Source: Methanospirillum sp.
Lineage (GTDB): Archaea > Halobacteriota > Methanomicrobia > Methanomicrobiales > Methanospirillaceae
Assembly: GCA_012728895.1 (NCBI GenBank)
Contig: JAAYEG010000060.1
Span: forward strand, 1 to 50,431
Direction: 5' to 3'
DNA: 50,431 bases
The notes under the pieces are model-generated. The model was not told the DNA's origin. It was given only the letters and a program-made list of their open reading frames with translations, and did no database searches. The position numbers were made by a program, and so were the translations under genes. This document shows, piece after piece, positions 2,330-2,560 of this stretch. The stretch's first letter is position 1, and each line of letters starts with the position of its first letter.

Positions 2330-2506
2330 CTAGAGTTTGAAAGAAACCTGGTCCTTGTCCCGCAGGATCCGGTTGCCCCGGCGTTCGATCAGGCCCCGAA
2401 CAGCGTCGCGCACGGCCTCGGAGACGGTCGGGAACTCGCCGTCCGCGACCATCTGTTCCAGCAGTTCCACCTGCTGCTCGGGCAACCGTATGGTGATCCG
2501 CTTCAT
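2330..2506 (-). CDS. cdrS: CdrS-like ribbon-helix-helix regulator
   Basis: A 58-residue ribbon-helix-helix protein. The N-terminal strand [12 protein letters not shown] is followed by two helices carrying a VSEAVRDAV-type turn. In haloarchaea the small RHH protein CdrS is encoded directly upstream of ftsZ2 and controls it, and this gene has the same size, fold and position. An upstream in-frame start exists, but ATG 2506 is preferred because the conserved strand begins exactly there. Three TGTC/GACA palindromes lie just upstream and could be its own operator. The orthology is inferred from context and fold, not from alignment. Confidence 0.85.
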
Positions 2507-2516
2507 GGTAATCGAG

Positions 2517-2560
2517 TTTGTCCGACAAATAGATGACATTTGTCATCTTTCTGTCAGACA
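2517..2560 (-). promoter_or_regulatory. Array of three TGTC/GACA palindromes (candidate CdrS operator)
   Basis: Three consecutive inverted repeats share the half-site TGTC/GACA: TTTGTC-C-GACAAA (2517-2529), AGATGACA-TT-TGTCATCT (2531-2548, perfect 8-bp arms) and TGTC-A-GACA (2552-2560). They begin 11 nt upstream of the RHH start codon. RHH proteins bind short palindromic or tandem half-sites as dimers of dimers, so autoregulation of the cdrS-ftsZ operon is the simplest reading. Binding is inferred; the palindromes are directly visible. Confidence 0.6.

Follow-up and report, generated by a model that had tools for sequence, protein, structure and literature searches.

Most of what is known about how archaea control FtsZ-based division comes from haloarchaea, in which the ribbon-helix-helix (RHH) regulator CdrS is encoded together with FtsZ2. 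In Haloferax volcanii, Liao 2021 (PMC8406309) recovered a symmetric motif by CdrS ChIP-seq, and its 10th nucleotide precedes the ftsZ1 start by 50 nt and the dacZ start by 47 nt; the same study reports that CdrS depletion lowers ftsZ1, so that CdrS behaves as an activator there, and does not report CdrS on its own promoter. In Halobacterium, the sole reproducible ChIP peak of a second RHH regulator, CdrL, is the cdrS promoter (PMC7439475). The cdrS-ftsZ2 locus itself has been described for the class Methanomicrobia and most archaeal clades (Darnell 2020, PMC7439475), and its occurrence beyond haloarchaea, which the original prediction had offered as an extension, is therefore not new. No work on a methanogen CdrS operator emerged when the literature was searched for CdrS together with Methanosarcina, and no earlier description was found of the operator array presented here.

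The window analyzed is a stretch of 50,431 nt from Methanospirillum sp. On its minus strand, cdrS (2330-2506, stop codon included) encodes a 58-aa RHH protein and is followed, after a gap of 10 nt (2320-2329), by ftsZ2 (1156-2319; 387 aa; TIGR00065), which is the gene arrangement that had been predicted. The product of cdrS is a short single-domain RHH_1 protein (Pfam PF01402, E=1.9e-9) with a strand-helix-helix fold in a single-sequence AlphaFold model (strand at residues 3-7, helices at 10-21 and 28-43; pLDDT 85), and a structure search of the PDB gave weak matches to RHH antitoxins and nothing stronger. Since its score of 59.4 bits against the NCBIfam equivalog TransRegCdrSHalo (NF058555) is below the curated cut-off of 100 bits and that model is named for haloarchaea, we refer to it as a methanogen CdrS homologue and not as haloarchaeal CdrS. 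The strand residues R3, T5 and R7 are invariant in 10 of 10 aligned sequences of the order and are also present in the haloarchaeal CdrS sequences read. The window FtsZ shares 64 to 68% identity with the cdrS-linked FtsZ2 of haloarchaea and 43 to 47% with the second FtsZ (FtsZ1) of the same genomes; judged by these identities, it is of type 2, and cdrS accordingly occupies the position directly upstream of ftsZ2 that is characteristic of the gene. Two additional FtsZ2-like genes of the window genome (C56:41346-42353 and C65:3943-4902), 65% and 63% identical to the window FtsZ2, come without a second cdrS and have no array upstream. The sole tRNA found in the window is tRNA-Pro (GGG) at 182-255 on the plus strand.

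Upstream of cdrS, positions 2520 to 2581 contain six 11-bp slots, each consisting of GTCNGAC and 4 bp and read on the minus strand. Slots A (GTCCGAC, 2575-2581), C (GTCTGAC, 2553-2559) and F (GTCGGAC, 2520-2526) are exact units, slot B (AGTCGCC, 2564-2570) is degenerate throughout the order, and slots D (AGATGAC, 2542-2548) and E (GTCATCT, 2531-2537) have only the right and the left half-site, respectively. Together, D and E form a perfect 8-bp palindrome that is the dyad centre of the array, and the linker between them is the only symmetry centre of the array at which dyad matching exceeds that of chimeric controls (z=4.1). The original prediction had identified three TGTC/GACA palindromes in this region, and all of them are present: TTTGTC-C-GACAAA at 2517-2529, AGATGACA-TT-TGTCATCT at 2531-2548 with its perfect 8-bp arms, and TGTC-A-GACA at 2552-2560, the three jointly forming one dyad with 20-nt arms that are 85% complementary. 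They are not independent, however, because they are slots C to F of a single array with an 11-bp period, and three separate palindromes were rejected as a description on the grounds that all units share one 11-bp phase. The predicted extent was likewise correct for slots C to F but too short, as it misses the two slots on the upstream side, A and B (2564-2581). Dinucleotide shuffling of the 130-bp upstream region yielded three exact GTCNGAC units or an equal in-phase score in 0 of 20,000 cases, and TGACANNTGTCA occurs a single time in the 2.28-Mb genome. The cdrS upstream region of the window has GTCNGAC units 11 bp apart, a target site of the type attributed to CdrS, and carries repeated candidate operator words in helical phase at the gene's own promoter, as do the tandem-operator RHH repressors.

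The array is conserved well beyond this genome. The cdrS upstream sequences of about 90 genomes of the order, representing 92 distinct regions, align without gaps in an 11-bp register of six slots, A to F, in which GTCNGAC is followed by a 4-bp, mostly A/T linker and position-wise conservation reaches up to 2 bits per base. Every exact pair of GTCNGAC units in these promoters (129/129) is separated by 11, 22, 33, 44 or 55 bp. Loss of the half-sites upstream of cdrS in close relatives would have spoken against the original prediction, and their conservation was instead found decisively. Outside the order but within the phylum, the 12 non-haloarchaeal cdrS promoters read all contain phased units, numbering from 2 to 8-9, and of their 120 near-perfect unit pairs, 102 keep the 11-bp phase. 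The site also appears to be dedicated to this operon: in the window genome, a profile built from slots C to F matched the cdrS site and no other, and exact two-unit matches outside cdrS in 101 genomes were no commoner than those of a control pattern, those inspected being mostly in coding sequence or beside no consistent gene. Sites at other division genes, for which the original prediction had suggested a search, are absent in the order, with no array upstream of any of 18 ftsZ1 genes. A few genera have a second, shorter array: three-unit phased arrays lie about 135 to 165 bp upstream of the gene for a conserved 106-aa protein with no Pfam match (two genera of the family), and two- to three-unit sites lie 58 to 87 bp upstream of a DUF2551 gene (one genus). 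One genome of the same order, G062 (98% complete), is without CdrS, FtsZ2 and the array; its best FtsZ match is FtsZ1-like, an apparent co-loss of CdrS and the array with FtsZ2.

The array can be connected to CdrS through the haloarchaeal targets of this regulator. In 80 named haloarchaeal genomes, the ftsZ1 loci of which were read directly, GTCNGAC-N4-GTCNGAC is located immediately upstream of the BRE/TATA of ftsZ1, perfectly in 55 and with no more than one of its 12 letters mismatched in 71, and a perfect pair occurs in these promoters at no other spacing between 0 and 15; another count found the site in 9 of 20 promoters. The distance of its centre from the expected start, about 50 nt, agrees with the ChIP-seq position of -50. 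The site is perfect in all nine Haloferax species; if transcription in these began 8 nt ahead of the ATG, the 10th nucleotide would fall at -50 and the start would lie 27 nt after the start of the TATA box, as expected of an archaeal promoter. The identity of GTCNGAC with the H. volcanii ChIP motif is based on position and on these nine species, which do not include H. volcanii, and not on the letters of the motif. At dacZ, no more than two of the 12 letters are mismatched at the N4 spacing and in the same place in 13 of 20 haloarchaeal promoters, compared with 0 to 5 at other spacings, the sites being weaker in form than those of ftsZ1 and missing in some genera. Exact GTCNGAC pairs number 52 in 12 haloarchaeal genomes, against 1 control match. 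Since GTCNGAC-N4-GTCNGAC is found at ftsZ1 and dacZ, two genes targeted by CdrS in haloarchaea, the window array is very probably a CdrS operator, and together with the conservation of the array this strongly supports the predicted operator upstream of methanogen cdrS as a candidate at the sequence level.

The possibility that a regulator other than CdrS binds the array is, in our assessment, quite improbable. It draws on the occupation of the haloarchaeal cdrS promoter by CdrL (PMC7439475) and on the ChIP results from H. volcanii, in which CdrS is not reported at that promoter (PMC8406309), but the GTCNGAC unit marks precisely the ftsZ1 and dacZ promoters that CdrS binds in H. volcanii, CdrL reportedly does not occur beyond the haloarchaea (PMC7439475), and in G062 the array and CdrS are missing together.

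CdrS, very probably bound at its own promoter, would control its own supply and that of FtsZ2, and the geometry of the promoter suggests in which direction. A BRE and TATA box (ACGAAACGAATTTATAAG) are predicted at 2610-2627 on the minus strand, and the position of the TATA box implies a transcription start at 2587-2591, 22 to 26 nt downstream of the TATA centre. The distance from the TATA start to the start of slot A is 36 bp in the window and mostly 38 to 41 bp in relatives. Because the BRE/TATA is upstream of the array, the predicted start falls just before slot A and the array would lie wholly in the leader. We propose that 2520-2581 serves as an operator for CdrS ahead of cdrS itself, with one CdrS dimer contacting each 7-bp GTCNGAC unit through its two-stranded ribbon (presumably by R3, T5 and R7). 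Since the units recur every 11 bp, one turn of the helix, the dimers would sit side by side on one face of the DNA, possibly binding cooperatively, and since the array fills the leader directly after the predicted start and extends through its approximately 80 nt, polymerase would be blocked on the bound DNA. In this way CdrS would restrict its own synthesis and that of FtsZ2, a negative feedback setting the level of the division protein. This would be in line with the statement of Liao 2021 (PMC8406309) that factors bound at the promoter or downstream of it are usually inhibitory in archaea. We infer cooperativity and repression from the array geometry only, and the combined reading, a CdrS operator with cooperative autorepression of cdrS-ftsZ2, appears probable to us on sequence grounds.

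The opposite sign, in which CdrS binds the array and activates its own operon from a true start downstream of the array or from a remodelled promoter, would accord with the lowered ftsZ1 seen upon CdrS depletion at a haloarchaeal promoter with the GTCNGAC unit upstream (PMC8406309) and with the reported activation of ftsZ2 by CdrS in Halobacterium (PMC7439475). We regard it as unlikely: in almost every promoter the sole good BRE/TATA precedes the array, most often 38 to 41 bp from slot A, and the approximately 75 bp between slot A and the ATG are occupied by the array, leaving little room for a promoter.

The predicted location of the array in the leader also raises the question of whether the repeats act as RNA, with a hairpin controlling how the cdrS-ftsZ2 message is translated or how stable it is. 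A folding energy of -36.4 kcal/mol (z=-5.3) was obtained for the window leader, folding is better for real arrays than for chimeras, and the excess of dyad pairing at D/E over chimeric controls would also suit a stem. Set against this, the RNAalifold consensus contains no pairs across the order, the named hairpin is broken in 23% of cells, there is no Rfam match, and haloarchaeal ftsZ1 has this unit, at this spacing, ahead of its TATA box, so that transcription from that promoter should not include it. The covariation is mostly a matching of weak half-sites, which a symmetric DNA operator would be expected to show. An RNA leader is therefore ranked low, though not at zero, and autorepression through a DNA operator remains our preferred reading.

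The haloarchaeal cdrS promoters are organized differently. No GTCNGAC arrays are found at them; they carry GTAAGAC-N4-GTCTTAC or close variants, and the exact form occurs once per genome in 9 of 12 haloarchaeal genomes, in each case at the cdrS promoter. This sequence is absent from the window cdrS promoter, which has GTCNGAC in its place. A CdrL-type protein (RHH with zinc ribbon) is encoded just upstream in most haloarchaea examined, and since the only reproducible CdrL ChIP peak is that promoter (PMC7439475), GTAAGAC-N4-GTCTTAC may be the CdrL operator. One scenario is that cdrS-ftsZ2 was ancestrally under negative feedback, exerted by CdrS from a long, helically phased operator array, and that haloarchaea (i) lost the array, (ii) placed the operon under CdrL by way of a single site of another sequence, and (iii) turned CdrS, with the same GTCNGAC word, to activating ftsZ1, dacZ and further genes; we give this scenario an even chance.

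The array provides a base-resolved candidate operator for the methanogens and other lineages of the phylum, a prediction of autoregulation with a stated sign, a likely CdrS word (GTCNGAC with 11-bp spacing) and a testable case of rewiring of a division circuit between lineages. Relative to the CdrS of Haloferax volcanii and Halobacterium salinarum (Liao 2021; Darnell 2020), the window is alike in protein family and in the cdrS-ftsZ2 pair, and the unit of its array, GTCNGAC with a 4-bp linker, is that of the ChIP-bound ftsZ1 promoter of the H. volcanii system. The haloarchaeal site has two units, lies upstream of the BRE, is found at several genes and is probably activating, whereas the window has a six-slot array in the cdrS leader and a second array in its genome was not found. 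The haloarchaeal control of cdrS-ftsZ2 by CdrL resembles the window in having cdrS-ftsZ2 as the single regulated promoter per genome but relies on an RHH protein with zinc ribbons that is reported absent from methanogens, and its site is GTAAGAC-N4-GTCTTAC in contrast to the GTCNGAC array. MetJ with its met boxes, Omega with its heptads, CopG, ParR and Arc are small RHH dimers that bind repeated short words cooperatively, often at their own promoters. In sequence, window CdrS resembles these repressors at the level of the RHH fold only, and word, period and setting differ, the window combining an 11-bp period with an archaeal division operon.
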